Assembly: GCA_030431255.1 (NCBI GenBank)
Contig: JAUIJL010000006.1
Coordinates: 62,001 to 126,000, forward strand
Length of the DNA stretch: 64,000 bases
Direction of reading: 5' to 3'
DNA from: Thermoanaerobaculia bacterium
Lineage (GTDB): Bacteria > Acidobacteriota > Thermoanaerobaculia > Multivoradales > J023
Shown here: positions 916-11,335 of the stretch, in pieces
How the letters are laid out: the number at the start of each line of letters is the position of its first letter
How positions within the stretch are numbered: position 1 is the stretch's first letter
Program-made: the position numbers and the translations under genes
Notes under the pieces: generated by a model
Told to the model about the DNA's origin: nothing
The model's database searches: none
The model's input: only the letters and a program-made list of their open reading frames with translations

Positions 916-2742
916 TCAAACGTTTTGTAGCGGTTCCTGGCCTTCGAGCCCGCTTTCCGGCTGGATCGGCAGCTTGAGACGAAACGTCGATCCGCTCCCG
1001 GGGGTGCTTTCCACCGACACCTCTCCTTGCATCGACAAGGCGATGTGCTTGACGATAGCCAACCCCAGGCCAGTGCCCCCCAGCTCTCTCGAGCGGGCCT
1101 TGTCCACACGATAGAAGCGTTCGAAGAGTCGATCTCGATGCTCTGCCTCGATGCCGATTCCGTGGTCTTCGACCTCGATCCACGCTTCCTCTCCTTCGAC
1201 TCTCAGCCGCACCTCTACCCGTTTCCCCCGGGGGGAGAATTTGATCGCGTTGTTGAGCAGGTTGGCGATCGCTTGGTCAAAGAAATCTTCGTCTCCCATG
1301 GACCACACCGATTCCACGGGCAGATCCGTTTCGATTCGCACTTGCTTGGCCTCGCTCACCGGCTGAAGGGCGAGGATCGTTTGCTCGATGGAAGTTGCCA
1401 AATCCACGGGTTGGGGATCCGAGAAAGCCTCCGCGGACTCGAGGTGGGCGAGGGACAATAGATCGTTGACCAACGTGCCCATTCGCTGCGCCTGCAGGAG
1501 CACACGCTGAAGGAAGCGATCCCGCCGTGCCGAATCGATATCCGGGTCGTCGAGCAGGGTTTCGATCATGCCCCGGATGGCGGTGAGCGGCGTTTTCAGC
1601 TCGTGGGAGACGTTGGCGACGAAATCCTGCCGCATGGTTTCCAGGTGCCGCAAGCGGCTGACGTCTTGCAGAATGAGCACCGCGCCGGCAAGGCCGGTTC
1701 CCGCCCACAGCGGTGTTCCCCTCAGCTCTAGGACCCGTTCCGGAGAGCCGGGGAAATGCACCACCGTATTTTGATTCTCGGAGCTCTCCAGGACCGCGCT
1801 CAACACCTCCGAGACCTCGCGCAGCTTTGCGACCTCCCAAATGGGCCGGCCCACCACTTGGTCGGGCTCCACCTTGAGCAAATCCCCGGCGACCTCGTTG
1901 ATATGCACCACCCGTTCGTCTCGATCCACGGCTACCACTCCCTCTTCCATGCTCGAAAGAATGGCGGTGAGCTTGTTGCGATCCGTGCTCAGGGCAGCGA
2001 TCGACCCCCTCAGCTCTCGGCTCATGGTGTTGAAGGCTCTGGCGAGAATTCCGAGCTCGTCCCGGCTGGAGCTGTGCACTCGTTGCTCGTAGTCGCCGGC
2101 GGCTATTTCCTCGGCCGCTTTGACCATGGAGAGAATCGGTCGGGTGACTCGGCGGGCGTGCAGAAAGCCCAAAAAGAGGGCCGCCAACGTGGCCAATAGT
2201 GCGCCGACGAAAACCGCGTGTTGCAGCTGGTCGAGGCGCCCTTCCAAATCGGTCAGGGGCAAGGAAGAGCGAACCATCGCCACGGGGGCGCCATCTTCCA
2301 CTAGCGGGACGGCCAGATAGCGAAGGGTTCGCCCCAGGGTCTTGCTGAATCGAGTCGCGCTGCCGCGGCCTTCGACATAGGCTTGGATGATTTCCGGCCT
2401 ATCCGCATGATTCTCCATGCGTTCCGGCAGCTGCTCGGAATCCGCGATCACCAAACCGTCCAAGCGCACGATGGTCAATCGGACGCCCAGCTGGTCTCCG
2501 ATATGCGTGATCTCAGCTTGCAGCTCGGCTGCGGATTCCGCCGAAGGGGCCGACGCCTCGACGATTCGATGCCGCGCCGCTTCCCGCAAGGTGACGGCAA
2601 TGGAGCTGAGGCGCTGGTCGACCTCCCTCACGGTTTCCGACTCGACCCGCCTCGTGACCGTGCTTCCGACGAAAAAGGAAGAGAGCAAAATCACCACGGC
2701 GTAAACCGCGTAGAGCTTCCACAGGAAGCGCGAACGGAGCAT
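916..2742 (-). CDS. phoR: PhoR-type phosphate sensor histidine kinase
   Basis: A 608-residue membrane histidine kinase. Hydrophobic segments at about 9-28 and 176-195 flank a periplasmic sensor of about 150 residues. A HAMP linker follows (about 196-250), then a PAS domain (about 255-365). The HisKA domain has VSHELKTPL with phospho-acceptor His380. The ATPase domain carries an N-box (NLLNNAIKF, about 495), a G1 box (DHGIGI, about 526) and a G2 box (GGTGLGLAIVK, about 555). This is the PhoR/ResE/WalK architecture. The gene starts 7 nt after the phoB stop, so the pair is certainly co-transcribed. With phoU just upstream, the expected role is phosphate-starvation sensing and phosphorylation of PhoB. 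Unlike E. coli PhoR, it has a large extracytoplasmic sensor, as in Bacillus. Confidence 0.9.
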   Translation of the reverse strand: MLRSRFLWKLYAVYAVVILLSSFFVGSTVTRRVESETVREVDQRLSSIAVTLREAARHRIVEASAPSAESAAELQAEITHIGDQLGVRLTIVRLDGLVIADSEQLPERMENHADRPEIIQAYVEGRGSATRFSKTLGRTLRYLAVPLVEDGAPVAMVRSSLPLTDLEGRLDQLQHAVFVGALLATLAALFLGFLHARRVTRPILSMVKAAEEIAAGDYEQRVHSSSRDELGILARAFNTMSRELRGSIAALSTDRNKLTAILSSMEEGVVAVDRDERVVHINEVAGDLLKVEPDQVVGRPIWEVAKLREVSEVLSAVLESSENQNTVVHFPGSPERVLELRGTPLWAGTGLAGAVLILQDVSRLRHLETMRQDFVANVSHELKTPLTAIRGMIETLLDDPDIDSARRDRFLQRVLLQAQRMGTLVNDLLSLAHLESAEAFSDPQPVDLATSIEQTILALQPVSEAKQVRIETDLPVESVWSMGDEDFFDQAIANLLNNAIKFSPRGKRVEVRLRVEGEEAWIEVEDHGIGIEAEHRDRLFERFYRVDKARSRELGGTGLGLAIVKHIALSMQGEVSVESTPGSGSTFRLKLPIQPESGLEGQEPLQNV

Positions 2743-2749
2743 TGAGTGG

Positions 2750-3454
2750 TTAGTCCTCTAGGCCGTCATCCTGGAATCGGTAGCCCACACCGCGGATGGT
2801 GCCGATCATGTTACGTAGGTGACCGAGCTTCTTTCGAATCGACCGAATGTGCACGTCGATGTTCCGATCGATCACCGCGGCACCGCCGCCGATGACCCGG
2901 GATACCAACTGATCTCGGGTAAAAACCCGTCCGGGGTGGGATGCGAGCAGATGCAAAAGGCGAAACTCCGTGGCGGTGAAGACCACGGCCTTTTGGTCGA
3001 CCCGAACCTCATGGCGGGCGCCGTCGATCGACAGGGCTCCCCGCACGAGGCGCTCGGAGCTACTGCCTTCCGCCCGTAAGGAGCCACGCCTCAGAACGGC
3101 CTTGACGCGAGCGATCAGCTCCTTGGGACGAAACGGCTTGGTGACGTAGTCGTCGGCACCGACGCCCAACCCCAAGACGATGTCGCTCTCCTCGCCTTTT
3201 GCGCTGACCATGATGATCGGAATCCGTTGAGTCATCGGATCCATTTTGATCTTCCGGCAGACCTCGATACCGTCGATTCCCGGAAGGAAAAGGTCCAAGA
3301 GCACCAAATCCGGCGCCTCTCGGCTGACGGCATCCAACCCTTGGTCTCCGGTGGTCGCCGTGATCACCTGAAAGCCTTCCCGGCTCAGGTTGTATTCCAC
3401 CACCTCGAGAATATCAGGCTCATCTTCGATGACTACAATCTTCTGGCGTGTCAC
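2750..3454 (-). CDS. phoB: PhoB-type response regulator
   Basis: An OmpR-family regulator. The receiver has the acidic pair in VIEDEPD, phospho-acceptor Asp54 in PDLVLLDLFLPG, Ser/Lys around SAKGEE, and the conserved Lys106 in DYVTKPF. A winged-helix DNA-binding domain occupies roughly residues 135-230 and ends IRGVGYRF. I place the start at the GTG at 3454 (MTRQKIVVIEDE), 10 nt after a GGAG, rather than at the TTG at 3463, which overlaps the ribosome-binding site. This also puts the acceptor at Asp54, as in E. coli PhoB. It is encoded directly ahead of phoR and after phoU on the same strand. It should activate phosphate-starvation genes. I could not pick out a clear Pho box in the neighbouring promoters. 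Confidence 0.9.
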   Translation of the reverse strand: MTRQKIVVIEDEPDILEVVEYNLSREGFQVITATTGDQGLDAVSREAPDLVLLDLFLPGIDGIEVCRKIKMDPMTQRIPIIMVSAKGEESDIVLGLGVGADDYVTKPFRPKELIARVKAVLRRGSLRAEGSSSERLVRGALSIDGARHEVRVDQKAVVFTATEFRLLHLLASHPGRVFTRDQLVSRVIGGGAAVIDRNIDVHIRSIRKKLGHLRNMIGTIRGVGYRFQDDGLED

Positions 3455-3593
3455 GAAATCCAATCTCCACGGTCCGACTGCGGATAGGCTGGACGCCCAC
3501 CCATTCTATGCAGAATAGCGAGTCTGCCCGCCGAAAACGAGCGACTCGGCGGGTAAAGAGGTCGCGGGCGGCGAGCACCACCCCATCCTGCTA

Positions 3594-4250
3594 TCACCAT
3601 CTTCTGTGCCGTACGACCTCGGCGTCGACCAAAAAGACGACGTCCTCAGCGATGTTGGTCGCCAGATCCGCGATCCGCTCGAGATAGCGCGAAACTGAGA
3701 GCAGCTGGATCCACTCGCTGACCTTATCGGGATGCTCTCGAATCCTGTCCTCGATCACCCGAAAAACGCTCTTGTGGGTCTCGTCGACAAATTCGTCTTC
3801 GTCGAGCACTTGTCGCGCTTTTTTCGTATCCTGCGCGATCAGCGCATCCAGGCTGTGTCGCAGCATCCCGGGCACTCGGTCGCCCATGGCGAGAATTTCG
3901 TCGGGAATCTTGACCGGCTCCCGTTGGGCCAGAAACTCGGCCCGATTGGCTAGGTTTCCGGCCAGATCACCCACCCTTTCCAGGTCGTTGTTGACCTTCA
4001 TCACGGTCACCACAAATCGCAGATCATTGGCGACGGGTTGGTGCAGGGCGAGCAGCTTCAGGCACTCTTCCTCGAGCCGAATCTCACGTTCGTCCACCTC
4101 CTTGTCGCCGAGGTCTACCTCTTCGGCAAGGCCGGCGCGGCGCTCCTTGAGGGCAACGATCGAGCGGACCGTGAGATCTTCGACGAGGGAACCCAGCAAG
4201 AGCAGCTCTTTCTTGATTCTCTCGAGATCGCGATGAAGGTGTACTGCCAT
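3594..4250 (-). CDS. phoU: PhoU phosphate-signalling regulator
   Basis: A 218-residue, all-helical protein with two PhoU repeats. The metal-binding ExxxD-type motifs are visible as NNDLERVGDLAGNLAN (about 86-101) and SRYLERIADLATNIAED (about 187-203). PhoU links the Pst phosphate transporter to the PhoR kinase and represses PhoB signalling when phosphate is plentiful; its loss causes polyphosphate overaccumulation in several bacteria. Here it lies upstream of phoB-phoR on the same strand with a 139-nt gap. No pstSCAB genes are nearby, which is less usual. The start ATG has a purine-rich GAGAGAG stretch upstream. Confidence 0.93.
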   Translation of the reverse strand: MAVHLHRDLERIKKELLLLGSLVEDLTVRSIVALKERRAGLAEEVDLGDKEVDEREIRLEEECLKLLALHQPVANDLRFVVTVMKVNNDLERVGDLAGNLANRAEFLAQREPVKIPDEILAMGDRVPGMLRHSLDALIAQDTKKARQVLDEDEFVDETHKSVFRVIEDRIREHPDKVSEWIQLLSVSRYLERIADLATNIAEDVVFLVDAEVVRHRRW

Positions 4251-4480: not shown

Positions 4481-6076
4481 TCACGGGGATTTGAAGAGGT
4501 GCTTGAACCGCTGCTGGTTCTCGGCCGACGCGAAACGGGCGAATCGTAAACCGAAAGCTCGGCGCTCGGCGTTCTGACCTTCCGCCAGGTGAAATTGGAG
4601 CTGCCCCATGGCGAGCAGGGTCGCGGCCGGGGTCTCAGCCTGTGCGGACATCTCTTCGGCGAATTGTGCCAGGGAAGCCTGTTGCACCTCATAGTCGTTG
4701 AAGTCGCCCAGGTTGTCTTGTAGACGTTTGAGCTCCTTGATCGACTTTTCGATCTCTGCCGTATCGTAGAGGCTGCGGAAGAACTCCATCAGGTAGCGCA
4801 GCTTCTTGCACTCCAGACGGACGTCGTGCAGGCGCTCGGCCGGGCTTGAATCGTCGATAGCCAGGCCTTGTTTCAAGATCCGCCGATAGATCTTCCAGAT
4901 CCGCTCCGAGCCGACCTCTCGGATCGGTCGGGCCGCATTGGCCGGCTGCGTCGCGGGCGACACCTCACCGGTCATATTCGTATCCGCCGAGGTCAGATAG
5001 CTACGCCAATCGGCCACCAATTTCCGATATCGAGGAGAGGCCAGACCCTGAGCGAGCTTTTTCTGCTCACTCTTTTGCTTCTTGGCCAGAAACATGGCCA
5101 GGGGCTCCAGATCGCGCGCCACCTCGGGTTGGAGGGACTTGCGGTAGCCGGGCATCTTGAGCAAATAGACATCGAGATCCCGCGTTGGCCCGGTGAGCTT
5201 GCCCAACCAAGAGAGCTCGTTCTTGAAGTAGGCCTCGACATCCTCCGGCAGGATCTTTTTGATCTGGCTGAGACCGGCTCGAGTGCGGCGAACGGCCACC
5301 CGGAAATCATGGAGGAATTCCGAATCCACATCTCGGCGCGTGCCGTCCTCATTGATCTCCATGGTGTCCAGTAGTTGGAGAAAAATACGTCGGGCGGCGT
5401 CGAGCGCGGAGTCTTCGGGAAACAGCTCGATCTTGACCTTGGACGCGTAGCTTCCCGGTTCCATGCCCAAAACCGCCGCGGCTTCTTCAAAAACCGGTCT
5501 GTCGGCGATTTGCAGGCCCGACTTTTTATGCAAATAGTCACCCAGACGTTGGGCCGCCGAATATCCGCGCACCGACTCGACAAAGAGCCGAGCTGCCAAG
5601 TCTCTGCTGTCGGGGTCGCCCTCCCGACTACATTCGGCGATCTCCAGTCGCACGCGAGCTACGGTTTTGTCCTCAGCGCCCAACACGCTCCAGCCACGGC
5701 TGCTCACGTCCACCGCGAGCAATGGCAGCACTCGCCGCATCTGCAGGATCGGCTCGAGCTGAGCTTGCATTCGACCCTCCGGCAGGTCCCAAACGAAACC
5801 GGGCTCCAAGGAAGACGGCACCGCCATGTGCAGCGCCTCCGTCGGTCCTTCGAGGTACAAACCCACGTCGCCGGGTTTCTTGCCGGCCGAGACCTCTTGC
5901 TCGACCACCAGCGCGAGCTCTTGGCGGTGAAGTCGCCAATCGAAGGTGTCGTAAAACGTCAGCTTGCGCCGCGACTGCTGAGATTCCGACAGCCGGAAAG
6001 GTCCCTTTATCGCCTCCACGATCTCGGAGGCCCGCTTTGAATCGATCAGAAATGCGAATGTCTGGAGCGTCTTCAT
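4481..6076 (-). CDS. CYTH-like / CHAD domain protein, probable polyphosphate-binding
   Basis: A 531-residue protein. The C-terminal part (about 225-520) is a CHAD domain: helical, rich in Arg, Lys and His, with FLHDFRVAVRRTRAGLSQIKK, GPTRDLDVYLLKMPGYR and LHDVRLECKKLRYLMEFF. CHAD domains bind inorganic polyphosphate and can localise to polyphosphate granules. The N-terminal part (about 1-200) resembles a decayed CYTH fold (KLTFYDTFDWRLHRQELAL; later VARVRLEIAE). I do not see the ExExK signature needed for triphosphate metal binding, so it is probably not an active triphosphatase. It lies between the Lys-rich HhH gene (25 nt upstream) and phoU, close to ppx and ppk1. A TTG at 6088 is an alternative start; neither start has a strong ribosome-binding site. 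Confidence 0.85.
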   Translation of the reverse strand: MKTLQTFAFLIDSKRASEIVEAIKGPFRLSESQQSRRKLTFYDTFDWRLHRQELALVVEQEVSAGKKPGDVGLYLEGPTEALHMAVPSSLEPGFVWDLPEGRMQAQLEPILQMRRVLPLLAVDVSSRGWSVLGAEDKTVARVRLEIAECSREGDPDSRDLAARLFVESVRGYSAAQRLGDYLHKKSGLQIADRPVFEEAAAVLGMEPGSYASKVKIELFPEDSALDAARRIFLQLLDTMEINEDGTRRDVDSEFLHDFRVAVRRTRAGLSQIKKILPEDVEAYFKNELSWLGKLTGPTRDLDVYLLKMPGYRKSLQPEVARDLEPLAMFLAKKQKSEQKKLAQGLASPRYRKLVADWRSYLTSADTNMTGEVSPATQPANAARPIREVGSERIWKIYRRILKQGLAIDDSSPAERLHDVRLECKKLRYLMEFFRSLYDTAEIEKSIKELKRLQDNLGDFNDYEVQQASLAQFAEEMSAQAETPAATLLAMGQLQFHLAEGQNAERRAFGLRFARFASAENQQRFKHLFKSP

Positions 6077-6100: not shown

Positions 6101-6763
6101 TTACTTCTTCTTGCCCTTCGACTTTTTGTCGGTTTTCTTCTTGCCCTTCGGCTTCTCATCTTTGGATTTCTTGCCGGCCTTGGATTTCTTGCCGCTTTTG
6201 GACTTCTTGCCGGACTTGGGTTTCTTATCGTCCTTGGACGACTTCTTCTCGGCTTTGCTCTTCTTGGCCTTGTCTTTCTTCGACTTGCCGTCTTTCTTCG
6301 GTTTGTCTTCTTTGGCCGCCTTATCTTTTTTGGCTTTGGCCTTCTTGCCGCCCTCAGCGTCTTCCTTCGCGGAGGTTTTCTTGTCAGCGGATTTCTTGTC
6401 GGCAACCTTGTTGTCGGTCGGCGCCGGGGCTTCGGCCTTCTTCGGCGGAGAGCTCTTCGGCGCCTCCGGCTTGGAGACGGCAGACTTCTTCGGCTTGGAA
6501 GCGGCAGGTGTCCCCGGCTCGGAAACCGCCGGTTTAGAGGCGGCAGGCGCCTTGGGCTTGGAGGCGGCGGGCTCGGCCTTTGGCTGCGCCAGCTCGGCGG
6601 CGGCGGAATGGACAGCGGCCGCCCGGTTGACGCTGAATCCCCGTATGGCCGCCAGCTCTTGAAGCGACGCTCCTGCGACCTTTGCCACCGTGGTCAGCCC
6701 GGCCGCAGCCAACAGCTTCGCTGTGCTGGGCCCGATTCCCCGAATATCCGTTAGCTTGCTCAT
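6101..6763 (-). CDS. Helix-hairpin-helix protein with histone H1-like lysine-rich tail
   Basis: A 220-residue protein in two unlike parts. Residues about 1-58 carry two helix-hairpin-helix-like units (LTDIRGIGPSTAKLLAAAGL and LAAIRGFSVNRAAAV), a fold that usually binds DNA non-specifically. Residues about 60-110 are Ala/Pro/Lys/Ser repeats (SKPKAPAASKPAVSEP). From about 115 to the end the chain is extremely Lys-rich (KSKKDKAKKSKAEKKSSKDD), ending GKKK. This resembles bacterial histone H1-like proteins such as AlgP. The ATG at 6763 has AGGAG 6 nt upstream and is preferred over the GTG at 6778. It is probably co-transcribed with the CHAD gene and divergent from ppx. I infer binding to DNA, polyphosphate or both. 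The low-complexity coding region is C-rich on the plus strand with many short repeats. Confidence 0.7.
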   Translation of the reverse strand: MSKLTDIRGIGPSTAKLLAAAGLTTVAKVAGASLQELAAIRGFSVNRAAAVHSAAAELAQPKAEPAASKPKAPAASKPAVSEPGTPAASKPKKSAVSKPEAPKSSPPKKAEAPAPTDNKVADKKSADKKTSAKEDAEGGKKAKAKKDKAAKEDKPKKDGKSKKDKAKKSKAEKKSSKDDKKPKSGKKSKSGKKSKAGKKSKDEKPKGKKKTDKKSKGKKK

Positions 6764-6968: not shown

Positions 6969-8597
6969 ATGACCCCTCCCAAGAGCAACACGGATCCACC
7001 CTCGCCCGGCGCCTTGCCGGAAATGATGGCAGGCGTCGACCTGGGATCCAATAGCTTCCGCATGGTCATCGCCCGCAGTGACGGCCATGAGCTGCGGGTC
7101 GTGGATCGTTTACGCGAAGGGGTTCGGTTGGCGGGTTGCCTGGACGAGGATCAGCACATCACCCAGGAAGGCTTCGACCGAGCCCTGCACGCCCTCGAGC
7201 TCTTCGGCCAGAGACTGCGCGACTTTCCACCGGGAACGGTCCGCGCCGTGGGCACCAACACCCTGCGTAAGGCGCGCAACACCCAGGCCTTTTTGATCCG
7301 GGCCCAATCCGCGCTCGGGCATCAGATCGAGGTGGTCTCGGGCCAGGAAGAGGCGCGGCTCATTTATCTCGGTGTCGCCCATTCTTTGAGCAGCCCGAGC
7401 TCCCGACTGGTGGTGGACATCGGTGGCGGAAGCACCGAATGCATCATCGGTCGCGGTTTCGATCCCCATATGGCGGAAAGCCTTTACATGGGCTGTGTCA
7501 GCTTTACCCAGAACCACTTTCCCGACGGCAAGATCACCGAAGCCGGGCTGCGGGACGCGGAGACTGCCGCGCGTCTGGAGCTTCGCGCCATCAAAACGTC
7601 GTTCAAACGGGAAGGGTGGCAACAAGCGGTCGGCGCATCGGGCACGGCCCATGCCATCTCGGAGATCCTGAGACTTCAGGGGTGGTCGGACCAAGGAATT
7701 ACCCCTGACGGCCTGGCCCGTCTCCGCCGGGAGCTGGTGGAAAGCGGACATATTGACCGGCTTTCTCTCGACGGTCTCCGCCGGGAGCGCGCCAAGGTCT
7801 TGCCCGGTGGCTTCGCCATCATGTCCGCAATTTTCGACAGTCTGCGCATTGAGCGCATGATCATTTCGCCCGGTGCGATGCGAGAGGGCTTGCTCTACGA
7901 TCTTTTTGGTAGATGGCATAAAGGGAGCGACGCCCGCGAAGCCACGATCCGGCGGCTGGAGGAGCAATACCGCGTGGACGGGGAACAGGCACGACGGGTA
8001 GAAGCGGTTTCCCTCTCGTGCCTCAATCAGGTGCAGGACTCCTGGGACCTCGACCCCGAGTCTTCGCAAAGCTTTCTCCGCTGGGCGTCCAGGCTGCACG
8101 AAATCGGCCTGAGTGTGTCCCACGGGGCTTTTCACAAACACGGCGCCTATTTGCTCGAGCACGGCCACATGCCCGGTTTCTCCATGCAGAATCAGCGGGT
8201 GCTGGCCCTTCTGGTGCGCGGGCAACGACGAAAATTCTGCAAAGCGACCATCTACGACAAGCTCCCCAAACAAACCGCCAAAGGCGTCGTTCGCCTCTGT
8301 CGGCTCTTGCGTTTGGCCTGTGTGCTGACCCGCAGCCGTAATCCGAGACAGCTACCGCGGCTGAGCTTGGAGGCCAAGGGCAAACGATTGAAAATCGAGT
8401 TTCCCAAGGGATGGCTGGGCCGCCATCCCCTGACCCTGGCGGATCTTCAACAAGAGATTGCTTACATGGAAGCGGCCGGCCTCAAGATGAAGGTCGGGGT
8501 CTACGATGCCGGGGATCCACCCAATGTCGGCTCCGCGCTCCCGGCACCGGGTAAACCGTCGATCCCGAGCCCCGAGTCGGCTGGAGACTCCCCGTGA
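6969..8597 (+). CDS. ppx: Exopolyphosphatase / pppGpp phosphohydrolase (Ppx/GppA family)
   Basis: A 542-residue member of the ASKHA superfamily. Phosphate 1 motif: AGVDLGSNSFRMVIAR. Phosphate 2 motif: VVDIGGGSTECIIG. A conserved VRAVGTNTLRKARN and GQEEARLIYLGV follow. The C-terminal part (about 320-500) is the helical HD-like domain (ASRLHEIGLSVSHGAFHKHGAYLLEHG) of long proteobacterial-type Ppx enzymes. Such enzymes release phosphate processively from polyphosphate chains, and GppA members also hydrolyse pppGpp; sequence alone does not settle the preference. I prefer the ATG at 6969. An in-frame TTG at 6942 would add nine residues, and ATGs at 7023 and 7026 are also possible; none has a clear ribosome-binding site. 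It is convergent with sixA, 23 nt away. Confidence 0.9.
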   Translation: MTPPKSNTDPPSPGALPEMMAGVDLGSNSFRMVIARSDGHELRVVDRLREGVRLAGCLDEDQHITQEGFDRALHALELFGQRLRDFPPGTVRAVGTNTLRKARNTQAFLIRAQSALGHQIEVVSGQEEARLIYLGVAHSLSSPSSRLVVDIGGGSTECIIGRGFDPHMAESLYMGCVSFTQNHFPDGKITEAGLRDAETAARLELRAIKTSFKREGWQQAVGASGTAHAISEILRLQGWSDQGITPDGLARLRRELVESGHIDRLSLDGLRRERAKVLPGGFAIMSAIFDSLRIERMIISPGAMREGLLYDLFGRWHKGSDAREATIRRLEEQYRVDGEQARRVEAVSLSCLNQVQDSWDLDPESSQSFLRWASRLHEIGLSVSHGAFHKHGAYLLEHGHMPGFSMQNQRVLALLVRGQRRKFCKATIYDKLPKQTAKGVVRLCRLLRLACVLTRSRNPRQLPRLSLEAKGKRLKIEFPKGWLGRHPLTLADLQQEIAYMEAAGLKMKVGVYDAGDPPNVGSALPAPGKPSIPSPESAGDSP

Positions 8598-8620: not shown

Positions 8621-9133
8621 TCAGTCCGTGGCTTTCTTCAGCCACCGCGGGGAAATGAACAATCGCAGCTCACCCCTGCCGAGCTCGATGTCCGTCCATC
8701 GTTGGATCGCCAAGTCGATCACCACCAGAGTGGCGGTCACCACCGCCAGACGTCCGCCGCCGACCAATCCGGATGCCAAGCTCGACCAAGTCGGCTCGTG
8801 TCCGACCATCAGAACCCGCTCTGCCGAATCCAAGTCTCGGGCCCTTGCTCGCAAGACCTCCAAAGCCCCTCCCACCGAGGCGCCATAGAGGTCCCGAGTC
8901 ACCTGGATTTCCCCGGGCCAATCCCCCGCATCGGCCGCCAGCTGTGCGGTGGTCAGCGCCCGTACCGCCGACGAGCTGATGACTCGATCCGGCTGAAGGT
9001 CGGTCGCGGTCATCATACGACCCACCAAACGGGCCGCCTTTTGACCTCTCGGGGCCAGAACCCGTTCATGATCGGAGGCAATACCCGAGTCCCAATCCGA
9101 CTTTCCGTGCCTTAGCAACATCAGGGTTTTCAT
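8621..9133 (-). CDS. sixA: SixA-like phosphohistidine phosphatase
   Basis: A 170-residue histidine-phosphatase-superfamily protein. The catalytic RHG motif is in KTLMLLRHGKSDWD (about residues 2-15), and the second histidine is in VLMVGHEPTWSSLA. SixA removes phosphate from phosphohistidine in histidine kinases or phosphocarrier proteins. Here it is divergent from ppk1 with only 18 bases between the two start codons, and it ends facing ppx. Placement between ppx and ppk1 suggests a role in phosphate metabolism; Ppk1 works through a phosphohistidine, but a direct link is only inference. I see no ribosome-binding site before the ATG. Confidence 0.87.
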   Translation of the reverse strand: MKTLMLLRHGKSDWDSGIASDHERVLAPRGQKAARLVGRMMTATDLQPDRVISSSAVRALTTAQLAADAGDWPGEIQVTRDLYGASVGGALEVLRARARDLDSAERVLMVGHEPTWSSLASGLVGGGRLAVVTATLVVIDLAIQRWTDIELGRGELRLFISPRWLKKATD

Positions 9134-9151: not shown

Positions 9152-11335
9152 ATGTCCTCTCCTTCCACCGCTGCCGAAACTCAGTCCCCCACGGCTTCGG
9201 CCCCAAAGACTCGCCGGACACGGCGCGACGCCGCGCCCAACCTCGACGATCCGGCTCTCTATTTCAACCGTGAGCTCAGCTGGTTGGAATTCAATCGCCG
9301 CGTATTGGAAGAGGCTCAGTCCAAAGAGAACCCCTTGCTCGAGCGGGTCAAATTCCTCTCGATCTTCTCCAGCAACCTCGACGAATTCTTTATGATCCGA
9401 GTGTCGGGCCTGAGGCGTCAGCTTCAGACCGGCGTGCTCAACCCACCGCCGGACGGCATGTCACCCGGCGAGCAGCTGGCCGCCCTGCACGAAACCCTGA
9501 CCCCGATGCTCGACGAATCCGCCCGCTTATGGCGCGAAGAGCTGATGCCCGCCTTGGCGAGCCATGACATCCACTTGCTGAGCTATTCCCAGCTGAAAAA
9601 CAAGCAACGCAAGCTGTTGCGGCGCCATTTTCGGCGAGAAATTTTTCCGGCTCTAACGCCACTGGCTTTCGACCCCAGCCATCCGTTTCCCCATATCTCC
9701 AATCTTTCCATCAACCTCGCCGTGGTGGTCCGCCACCCCGAGCTCGGTGAACGATTCGCGCGTCTCAAGGTGCCGCAGATCTTTCCTCGGCTGCTGCGCA
9801 TCCCCAAGGAAGAAACAGCCGACGCCTATGAGGATCTGGGTTTGCAAGTCGCCGGATCCTCGAGCTTCGTTTGGCTCGAAGAGGTGGTCGCCGCCAACCT
9901 CGACCTGCTGTTCCCGGGCCTCGAGGTGATCGATTCCTACGCTTTCCGGGTCACCCGGGACGCGGATTTCGACATTGAGGAAGACGAGGCGTCCGACTTG
10001 CTCGAAGCCATGGAAGAGGTGGTGGGGCAGCGCCACTTCGGCTTTGCGGTCCGGCTAGAGGTGGAGAACGACTGTCCGGACTCGATTCGCGAGATCCTGG
10101 TGCGCAATTTGGGCATGGCACCCTACCAAGCGTTCATCATGGAAGGCCCGATCGGAAAGTCCGACGTCATGGAGGTCGCCAAGCTCGACCGTCCGGAGCT
10201 GAAGGATCCTCCTTTCTTGCCGTATACCCCTCCACGCTTGACCAGCCCCGACAATCTCTTTTCTGAGATCAGCAGGCAGGATCAGCTCGTTTACCATCCC
10301 TATGACAGCTTCCAGCCCGTGGTGGACTTCATCCGCACCGCGGCCACCGACCCGAAGGTGCTGACTATCAAACAAACCCTTTATCGCGTGGGCCCGGACT
10401 CACCGGTGGTCAAAGCCTTGATGGAGGCACGGGAAAACGGCAAGCAAGTGGCAGTGTTGGTAGAGCTAAAAGCGCGGTTCGACGAGACCAACAACATCGT
10501 TTGGGCCCGAGCTCTAGAACGCGCGGGGGTTCACGTGGTGTACGGCGTTTTAGGGTTGAAAACCCACGCCAAGATGTCGTTGGTGGTGCGCCGGGAGAAA
10601 CGCGGCATCAAACGCTACGTGCACCTCGGCACGGGCAACTACAACCCGGTGACCGCGCGCATCTATACGGATCTCGGGTTTTTCACCTGCGACAGCAACA
10701 TCACCGCCGACGTGTCCGATCTCTTCAACGGTCTGACCGGTTATTCGCGCAAGAACACCTACCGCAAGATCCTGGTGGCGCCTCGCACCATGCGCGAGGA
10801 GCTTCTCGGCCGGATCTCCCGGGAGATTCAGAAGCACCAAGAGTCCGGTGGTGGCGGTCACATCGTATTCAAAGTCAATTCCCTGGTGGACAAGGCTTGT
10901 ATCCAAGCCCTCTACAAAGCCTCCCAGGCCGGAGTTAAGGTCGACCTGCAGATCCGCGGCATTTGTTGCCTGCGGCCGGGGGTTGCCAAGGTCAGCGAGC
11001 ACATCTCTGTGACCTCCCTCGTCGGGCGATTCCTCGAGCACACCCGCATCTTCTACTTCCGCAACGGTGGAGAAGAGGAGATCTTGGCGGGCAGCGCCGA
11101 CATCATGCCCCGCAATCTGGACGGCCGGGTGGAGGTGCTGTTTCCCATGGACGAGCCGGAAATCCTAAGGGCCGTGCGGGACGACATCCTATTCACCCAC
11201 CTCAAAGACACCGTCAATTGCCGACGTCTGCTGCCCGACGGCCGGTTCGAAAAGGTGAAACCGGAAATCGGCGAAAAGCCCCTCAACACCCAAGCCACCA
11301 TTCTTGGGCACCTAGCTCCTTGGCGAAAGAGCTAG
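9152..11335 (+). CDS. ppk1: Polyphosphate kinase 1
   Basis: A 727-residue enzyme of typical Ppk1 length. The N-terminal domain has LYFNRELSWLEFNRRVLEEA and FSSNLDEFFMIRVSGL. The first catalytic phospholipase-D-like region contains TIKQTLYRVG and LKTHAKMSLVVRR, whose His is the autophosphorylated residue, followed by YVHLGTGNYNPVTARIYTD. The second contains IRGICCLRPGV and RIFYFRNGGEEEILAGSADIMPRNL. It polymerises the ATP gamma-phosphate into inorganic polyphosphate. An alanine/threonine-rich extension of about 35 residues precedes the conserved start. CAGGAG lies 11 nt upstream of the ATG. The 3' end overlaps the convergent MATE gene by 4 nt. Confidence 0.97.
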   Translation: MSSPSTAAETQSPTASAPKTRRTRRDAAPNLDDPALYFNRELSWLEFNRRVLEEAQSKENPLLERVKFLSIFSSNLDEFFMIRVSGLRRQLQTGVLNPPPDGMSPGEQLAALHETLTPMLDESARLWREELMPALASHDIHLLSYSQLKNKQRKLLRRHFRREIFPALTPLAFDPSHPFPHISNLSINLAVVVRHPELGERFARLKVPQIFPRLLRIPKEETADAYEDLGLQVAGSSSFVWLEEVVAANLDLLFPGLEVIDSYAFRVTRDADFDIEEDEASDLLEAMEEVVGQRHFGFAVRLEVENDCPDSIREILVRNLGMAPYQAFIMEGPIGKSDVMEVAKLDRPELKDPPFLPYTPPRLTSPDNLFSEISRQDQLVYHPYDSFQPVVDFIRTAATDPKVLTIKQTLYRVGPDSPVVKALMEARENGKQVAVLVELKARFDETNNIVWARALERAGVHVVYGVLGLKTHAKMSLVVRREKRGIKRYVHLGTGNYNPVTARIYTDLGFFTCDSNITADVSDLFNGLTGYSRKNTYRKILVAPRTMREELLGRISREIQKHQESGGGGHIVFKVNSLVDKACIQALYKASQAGVKVDLQIRGICCLRPGVAKVSEHISVTSLVGRFLEHTRIFYFRNGGEEEILAGSADIMPRNLDGRVEVLFPMDEPEILRAVRDDILFTHLKDTVNCRRLLPDGRFEKVKPEIGEKPLNTQATILGHLAPWRKS

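Follow-up and report, generated by a model that had tools for sequence, protein, structure and literature searches.

The locus considered here raises the question of why a small helix-hairpin-helix (HhH) protein with a lysine-rich tail, here called HhHK, should be encoded among genes of polyphosphate (polyP) metabolism. It lies in a contig stretch of 64,000 nucleotides (the window) from a Thermoanaerobaculia bacterium of the Acidobacteriota. The original prediction was that HhHK links polyP granules to the nucleoid, on the precedent of the histone-like protein AlgP. What it had observed, namely the gene, its architecture of an HhH unit plus a long KKSK/GKK tail, and its setting between CHAD and ppx, was confirmed, the association of AlgP with polyP granules agreed with the literature (PMC9239181), and its interpretation was partly supported. 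The genes run in the order phoR-type, phoB-type, phoU, CHAD and HhHK (all minus strand), ppx (plus), sixA-like (minus) and ppk1 (plus), with the following positions in the window:

916..2742, minus strand: phoR-type histidine kinase (WalK, PnpS and PhoR models score highest, all below cut-off; PhoR TIGR02966, 315.7 against 334 bits)
2750..3463, minus strand: phoB-type response regulator (top NCBIfam model PhoB TIGR02154, 246.8 bits, below the cut-off of 296)
3594..4250, minus strand: phoU (TIGR02135, 195 bits, above cut-off)
4481..6076, minus strand: CHAD protein, with polyP-binding domain (Pfam CHAD, 5.3e-59; ATG at 6076 read by eye)
6101..6763, minus strand: HhHK, helix-hairpin-helix protein with lysine-rich tail, 220 aa (open reading frame, Pfam, tail composition, AlphaFold2)
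6104..6583, minus strand: disordered lysine-rich tail of HhHK, net charge +39, with short tandem repeats in part (composition, AlphaFold2)
6587..6763, minus strand: HHH_5 part of HhHK, about residues 1-59 (Pfam; pLDDT about 90)
6972..8597, plus strand: ppx/gppA exopolyphosphatase, divergent from HhHK (Pfam Ppx-GppA, 9.1e-79; TIGR03706 above cut-off)
8621..9133, minus strand: sixA-like phosphohistidine phosphatase (His_Phos_1; SixA 55.9 bits, below the cut-off of 74.5)
9152..11335, plus strand: ppk1 polyphosphate kinase (TIGR03705, E 1.7e-257, above cut-off)

HhHK was read from an ATG at 6763 to a stop codon at 6103-6101, with AGGAG a few nucleotides 5' of the ATG (read from the sequence), and 24 nt separate its end from the start codon of CHAD, which lies downstream. 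Pfam HHH_5 (PF14520) matched residues 3-55 at an E-value of 1.4e-9 and 38.7 bits, above the gathering cut-off of 27. In the AlphaFold2 model the block-mean pLDDT of residues 1-60 was 87-95, while beyond residue 60 it was 45-57, without secondary structure. The 160 residues C-terminal of the domain contain 60 lysines, no arginine and 21 acidic residues (D+E), a net charge of +39. Across 464 kb of the organism's own genome (the window and a further 20 stretches, each of 20 kb) just two open frames reached at least 12 lysines per 40 residues, HhHK (22) and a frame of 913 aa (14), so the tail is more than a product of chance. Its repeats are of the KKSK/GKK type, with a K/P/A/S-rich stretch limited to the linker (read from the translation). 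HhHK shares with AlgP/PhaF H1-like proteins a lysine-rich C-terminal tail, disordered as judged by low pLDDT, and the KPAA tandem repeats of those proteins were not found in it.

By sequence and fold, the domain was nearest to the RadA/Rad51 N-domain, L32e and the C-terminal repeat of NusA. With the HhH model, the seven top Foldseek matches were RadA recombinases, and for this short domain no match reached E ≤0.001. Whole-protein and HhH searches of the own genome (10.2 Mb) found HhHK as the single match. A profile search added one, a 590-aa frame, which was rejected as a second HhHK as it is PolX, and PADLOC gave no match for HhHK. The neighboring CHAD protein carries H255, R258 and R262 (numbered from 4484-6073), which are invariant across 12 rows of a CHAD alignment (A2) and, matched by spacing alone, correspond to H253, R256 and R260 of CtCHAD (PMC6537752). 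CHAD domains bind polyP specifically (PMC6537752).

An early scan of genome contigs with the whole HhHK protein as query returned no relatives; the full-length query was swamped by low-complexity candidates, and the HhH domain alone proved the better query. With a profile of that domain (E ≤1e-21), and before any neighborhood was examined, 18 HhHK genes were retrieved from 14 of 72 genomes of the order, as frames of 120-225 aa, all 18 with lysine-rich tails (23-61% Lys). The next matches began at E 1e-13 and were mostly frames of about 500 aa (NusA in eight of nine tested); among those left out were G006:C889, G033 and G021:C18 (235, 236 and 290 aa) and G037:C48 (64 aa). Samples of 396 Acidobacteriota genomes and 369 of Gammaproteobacteria gave at least four further members (G239, G246, G193 and G430) and at least 18 members, respectively; 16-17 candidates per genome were scored, so that members may have been missed. 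The phylum search left out G302, G349 and G214 (183, 203 and 296 aa; E 5e-13 to 8e-11) and excluded frames of ≥420 aa by length alone, except G246, a fusion that was kept, and G339, which was examined and rejected as its tail has 1% lysine. The gammaproteobacterial search left out G592 (793 aa) and counted L207, which is cut by a contig end. Both counts lean towards CHAD, because eight rows of the profile used (A3; L106, L107, L112, L113, L127, L129, L133 and L134) had been found via CHAD.

Comparison of 42 tails, 41 of them with at least 40 residues and a few shortened by contig ends, showed that their composition, lysine with little arginine, is conserved and their sequence is not, while the (HhH)2-type domain is conserved. 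The 41 had a median length of 72 residues and a median net charge of +28, with 22-61% lysine and a K:R ratio of 1380:110. GC content exceeded 50% at 36 of the 42 loci, yet lysine far exceeded arginine in the tails. The invariant columns of the family alignment (A4) were G9, L18, G42, R47 and A48 of the HhH part and one tail lysine. In the fusion (L107, 312-2318), HhH, lysine tail and CHAD form one frame of 669 aa; as functional proof it is weak, since it differs from its close relative L113 by one changed stop codon, and the ATG of CHAD is kept.

The markers of linkage were CHAD, ppk1, ppk2, ppx, phoU, pstS, pstC, pstA, pstB, Na/Pi cotransporter and Pit-type genes within 5 kb, scored by tblastn at E ≤1e-15 (for pstB additionally ≥60% identity). 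Marker proteins were taken partly from HhHK loci themselves, and most names were checked; the Pit query, from L113, matched sulfate-permease and PitA models, both below cut-off, and no count rests on it alone. A polyP or phosphate-uptake gene was found beside 13 of 18 HhHK genes of the order, where one positive (L081) was scored on a 375-bp fragment of a cotransporter gene and two loci with a Pit-type gene about 7 kb off (L074 and L075) were scored negative. The four further acidobacterial genes were all linked, and linkage was weaker in the gammaproteobacterial sample (6/18). Control sites, all drawn from the own order and own genome, gave 0/60: none of 20 other HhH-domain loci of the order, of 20 stretches of the own genome, or of 20 random places on ten contigs of the order (HhHK- or CHAD-bearing contigs included). 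Several of the 20 other HhH loci lie near contig ends, and the nine tested for family proved to be eight NusA and the PolX of the own genome; this control largely samples the same conserved site, nusA, again and again, so the random controls weigh more. Fisher's test, which ignores shared ancestry, gave 1.6e-6 for the order against either control from the order. Without L112 and L133 the gammaproteobacterial count was 4/16 (0.0014 against the 0/60 controls from the own order and genome).

HhHK neighbors included CHAD, ppk1, ppk2, ppx, pst-phoU and the Na/Pi cotransporter, in orders such as pstA-pstB-pstB-HhHK-ppk2-ppk2 (L097), NaPi-ppk1-ppk2-ppk2-HhHK-pst (L076) and HhHK-sixA-ppk1-ppk2-ppk2-NaPi (L078). 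That gene order varies among genomes speaks for selected linkage, not for one frozen block. Approached from CHAD, at the best 80 of at least 552 loci, 16 frames of lysine-tail type lay within 4 kb against one farther off in an equal amount of DNA; three of the 16 were out of frame or unrelated, and five came from genomes already seen. HhHK thus recurs in phosphate and polyP gene clusters in two phyla, and the linkage is not universal. The idea under study was to fall if homologues with this tail were placed at random with respect to polyP genes. It survives in its own lineage, where placement is non-random, and meets clear exceptions elsewhere: 5 of 18 genes in the order and 12 of 18 in the gammaproteobacterial sample had no such neighbor, and another genome of the same genus (G001) keeps CHAD-ppx-sixA-ppk1 with HhHK absent. 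The unlinked gammaproteobacterial members lie next to unrelated genes, for example those of a thiamine-pyrophosphate enzyme and ABC transporters at L209 and L215 and of a RelA/SpoT protein at L208.

The wider finding is a pairing of CHAD with a ParA-type ATPase, to which HhHK is accessory and which goes beyond what had been predicted. In a CHAD-alignment scan of GTDB genomes (best 80 of at least 552 loci), 58 of 79 evaluable loci had a ParA-type gene 3' of CHAD on the same strand, at a median gap of 27 bp, as did 17 of 23 CHAD loci from the own order and class. This arrangement occurs in several phyla (examples are L133, 9962-12827, and L113, 4939-7664), and the distinctive ATPase is a candidate for positioning polyP granules. 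The culturable Sedimenticola selenatireducens is among the bacteria with CHAD-parA (L137 and L180). The sampled CHAD-type ParAs grouped in a single clade (100/100) that excluded five other ParA-like proteins encoded in the own genome, a sixth (L188) being the nearest row outside it; in this tree the bootstrap was not settled, long branches were flagged, and two weaker own-genome matches (L189 and one on contig 5) were omitted. The own genome's CHAD-type ParA fell within the clade. It is encoded on contig 49, away from the polyP genes and outside the HhHK cluster, and has the deviant Walker A motif (KGGxxK[T/S]), its row (L186) having been picked by the pattern [KR]GG.G[KR][TS].

CHAD-type ParA was present in 11 of 14 HhHK-bearing genomes of the order and in 9 of the 58 others (Fisher 1.3e-5; 6e-4 when 21 genomes belonging to a single genus are excluded; by genus 9/11 against 4/17, 0.004), in tests that ignore ancestry; the three exceptions, G052, G043 and G056, had no ParA match at 1e-40. 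HhHK itself was found at 13 of the best 80 of at least 552 CHAD loci, many of them cut by contig ends (one of the 13 is the fusion, and five are in genomes already seen). In two genomes (G003 and G006) the CHAD-type ParA gene adjoins ppk1, L113 has the order HhHK-CHAD-parA, and the gammaproteobacterial loci L133, L202 and L203 have CHAD-parA-HhHK-pstS-phoU-pstC(-pstA). The genome lacking HhHK (G001, L068) was also without a CHAD-type ParA at 1e-40, and its CHAD match was confined to query residues 225-529. A contig labelled Halobacteria (L129), probably through a binning error, bears a gammaproteobacterial CHAD-parA-HhHK set, with a ParA that groups with Gammaproteobacteria. In Methyloprofundus (L165, 544-813), a Lys/Ala-rich frame of 90 aa, AlgP-like by eye and without HhH, lies upstream of CHAD-parA and is a possible stand-in for HhHK.

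Several described proteins resemble parts of this arrangement. AlgP of Pseudomonas aeruginosa shares with HhHK a lysine-rich disordered C-terminal tail of high net charge and a polyP link; it is located on polyP granules, is dispersed over the nucleoid when polyP kinases are missing, and is required for even granule spacing (PMC9239181). The likeness is one of description and composition, as the N-terminal domain of AlgP is helical and its repeats are of KPAA type, whereas HhHK has an HhH domain and KKSK/GKK repeats. PhaH of Caulobacter also has an HhH domain, which holds PHB storage granules on DNA (PMC13052382), but there a PHB-binding N-terminus precedes a C-terminal DNA-binding HhH, while in HhHK the HhH is N-terminal and followed by the tail alone. 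In PhaF and PhaM a histone-like domain links granule to nucleoid, as is proposed for HhHK (PMC13052382), with a PHA/PHB-binding N-terminus and a different cargo. McdA-McdB and other ParA/MinD systems encode a ParA-type ATPase with the proteins of its cargo (PMC10241942), as in CHAD-parA; here the cargo would be polyP, the own-genome parA lies elsewhere, and HhHK is a candidate partner.

Linkage of CHAD, parA and ppk is already in print for Acidithiobacillus, where folD, ppk, parA and CHAD are conserved together, side by side as at loci here (PMC10892726). That paper concerns copper and describes ParA by plasmid partition alone, with no positioning model, and 'helix-hairpin' is absent from its main text. 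The claim that no protein had been described in this role stood insofar as no paper joining CHAD, polyphosphate and helix-hairpin-helix was found among open-access full texts; it is qualified by PhaH, the HhH protein through which a 2025 review joins helix-hairpin-helix and polyP granules (PMC13052382). The table of that review has AlgP as its sole entry for polyP, and its text states that whether polyP-granule placement uses energy remains to be seen (PMC13052382). The main text of a Halothiobacillus survey of ParA/MinD cargoes contains neither 'polyphosphate' nor 'CHAD' (PMC10241942).

The reading we prefer, at a probability of about 0.45, is that HhHK is a small linker between polyP granule and nucleoid. 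Its HhH part would make sequence-independent contact with DNA, the tail, as a polycation, would bind polyP and could bind DNA too, and together with a CHAD protein on the granule surface it would keep granules on the nucleoid. Where a CHAD-type ParA exists, an ATP-driven nucleoid gradient could in addition space the granules and partition them, in the way that McdAB acts on carboxysomes. The linkage of ParA with CHAD suggests active positioning, and a bolder and less likely reading combines CHAD and HhHK with a dedicated ParA-type ATPase in one ATP-driven system for the spacing and partition of polyP granules on the nucleoid, in which CHAD would mark the granule, ParA would make the gradient, and HhHK would either bridge granule and DNA or act as ParA partner. 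Against the linker stand the HhHK genes with no polyP or phosphate neighbor (5/18 and 12/18), the absence of HhHK from the same-genus genome G001 despite its CHAD-ppx-sixA-ppk1 genes, and the own-genome ParA gene outside the cluster, and against DNA contact the presence of NusA and L32e among the nearest relatives of the domain. Proteins or RNA can be ligands of HHH_5 folds, and lysine tails bind any polyanion.

These properties admit other roles. HhHK could be an McdB/ParB-like adaptor whose basic disordered segment stimulates the CHAD-type ParA and couples granule to gradient, as might be expected from CHAD-parA-HhHK in one run at 4 of 18 gammaproteobacterial loci (L112, L133, L202, L203) and from its co-occurrence with ParA in 11 of 14 HhHK genomes of the order. 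ParA partners, however, are reported to act via a positively charged disordered N-terminus (PMC10241942), and the charged segment of HhHK is C-terminal; this, its presence at just 13 of the best 80 of at least 552 CHAD loci, many cut by contig ends, and the three HhHK genomes without a ParA match at 1e-40 make the adaptor unlikely. If the HhH part bound protein, e.g., CHAD or Ppk, and not DNA, the tail might instead serve as a counter-ion that condenses or nucleates granules by coacervation. The median tail charge of +28 and the neighboring ppk1, ppk2 and CHAD genes suit such a role, and HhH relatives with protein partners exist (NusA AR2-SuhB, 6ib8), but the seven top Foldseek matches were RadA recombinases and contact with CHAD or Ppk is purely hypothetical, so that we consider it improbable.

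At least as improbable is a role as a nucleoid protein of histone-H1 type that is produced in phosphate stress, compacts DNA and has no action on granules. Tail composition and HhH domain would fit, as would a gene linked to pst-phoU with no polyP gene within 5 kb (L083, where the contig ends about 170 bp past HhHK) and two linked to a Na/Pi cotransporter (L079 and L080); on the other hand, L200, L106, L092 and L078 adjoin CHAD or ppk genes with no pst within 5 kb, and no Pho box was found beside HhHK in the window (CTGTCA-N5-CTGTCA with ≤3 mismatches; 28 matches against 37.8 expected). That HhHK merely hitch-hikes and its position is incidental accords with the many gammaproteobacterial genes located elsewhere, but linkage repeated across two phyla in varied gene orders, with controls at 0/60, leaves this very unlikely.

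Should the CHAD-ParA-HhHK reading be true, it would be the first ParA system known for the polyP granule, as far as open-access full texts show, and in several bacterial phyla, and the cargoes of ParA, among them carboxysomes, chemotaxis clusters and chromosomes, would extend to polyP granules. Lysine-rich bridging of polyP and DNA would then have arisen with different N-terminal domains, in AlgP and in HhHK. The conserved CHAD-parA pair and the optional HhH-lysine linker provide named genes open to deletion.

Other genes were seen near HhHK. An ATP-cone protein recurs (L075, 9169-11685; L097, 4038-6518, recognized by eye; L204, 1263-3786), and by Pfam it is fused (L075) or adjacent (L204) to a 2,3-bisphosphoglycerate-independent phosphoglycerate mutase. 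An HhHK paralogue (L080, 89-3016) is divergent from two genes, one judged by eye to be of universal-stress type and one that Pfam identifies as a Na/Pi cotransporter-PhoU fusion, and L079 was assigned the same arrangement by similarity. In E. coli there is a link between ppGpp and polyP, and one gammaproteobacterial HhHK gene lies two genes from that of a RelA/SpoT protein (L208, 6177-9299).
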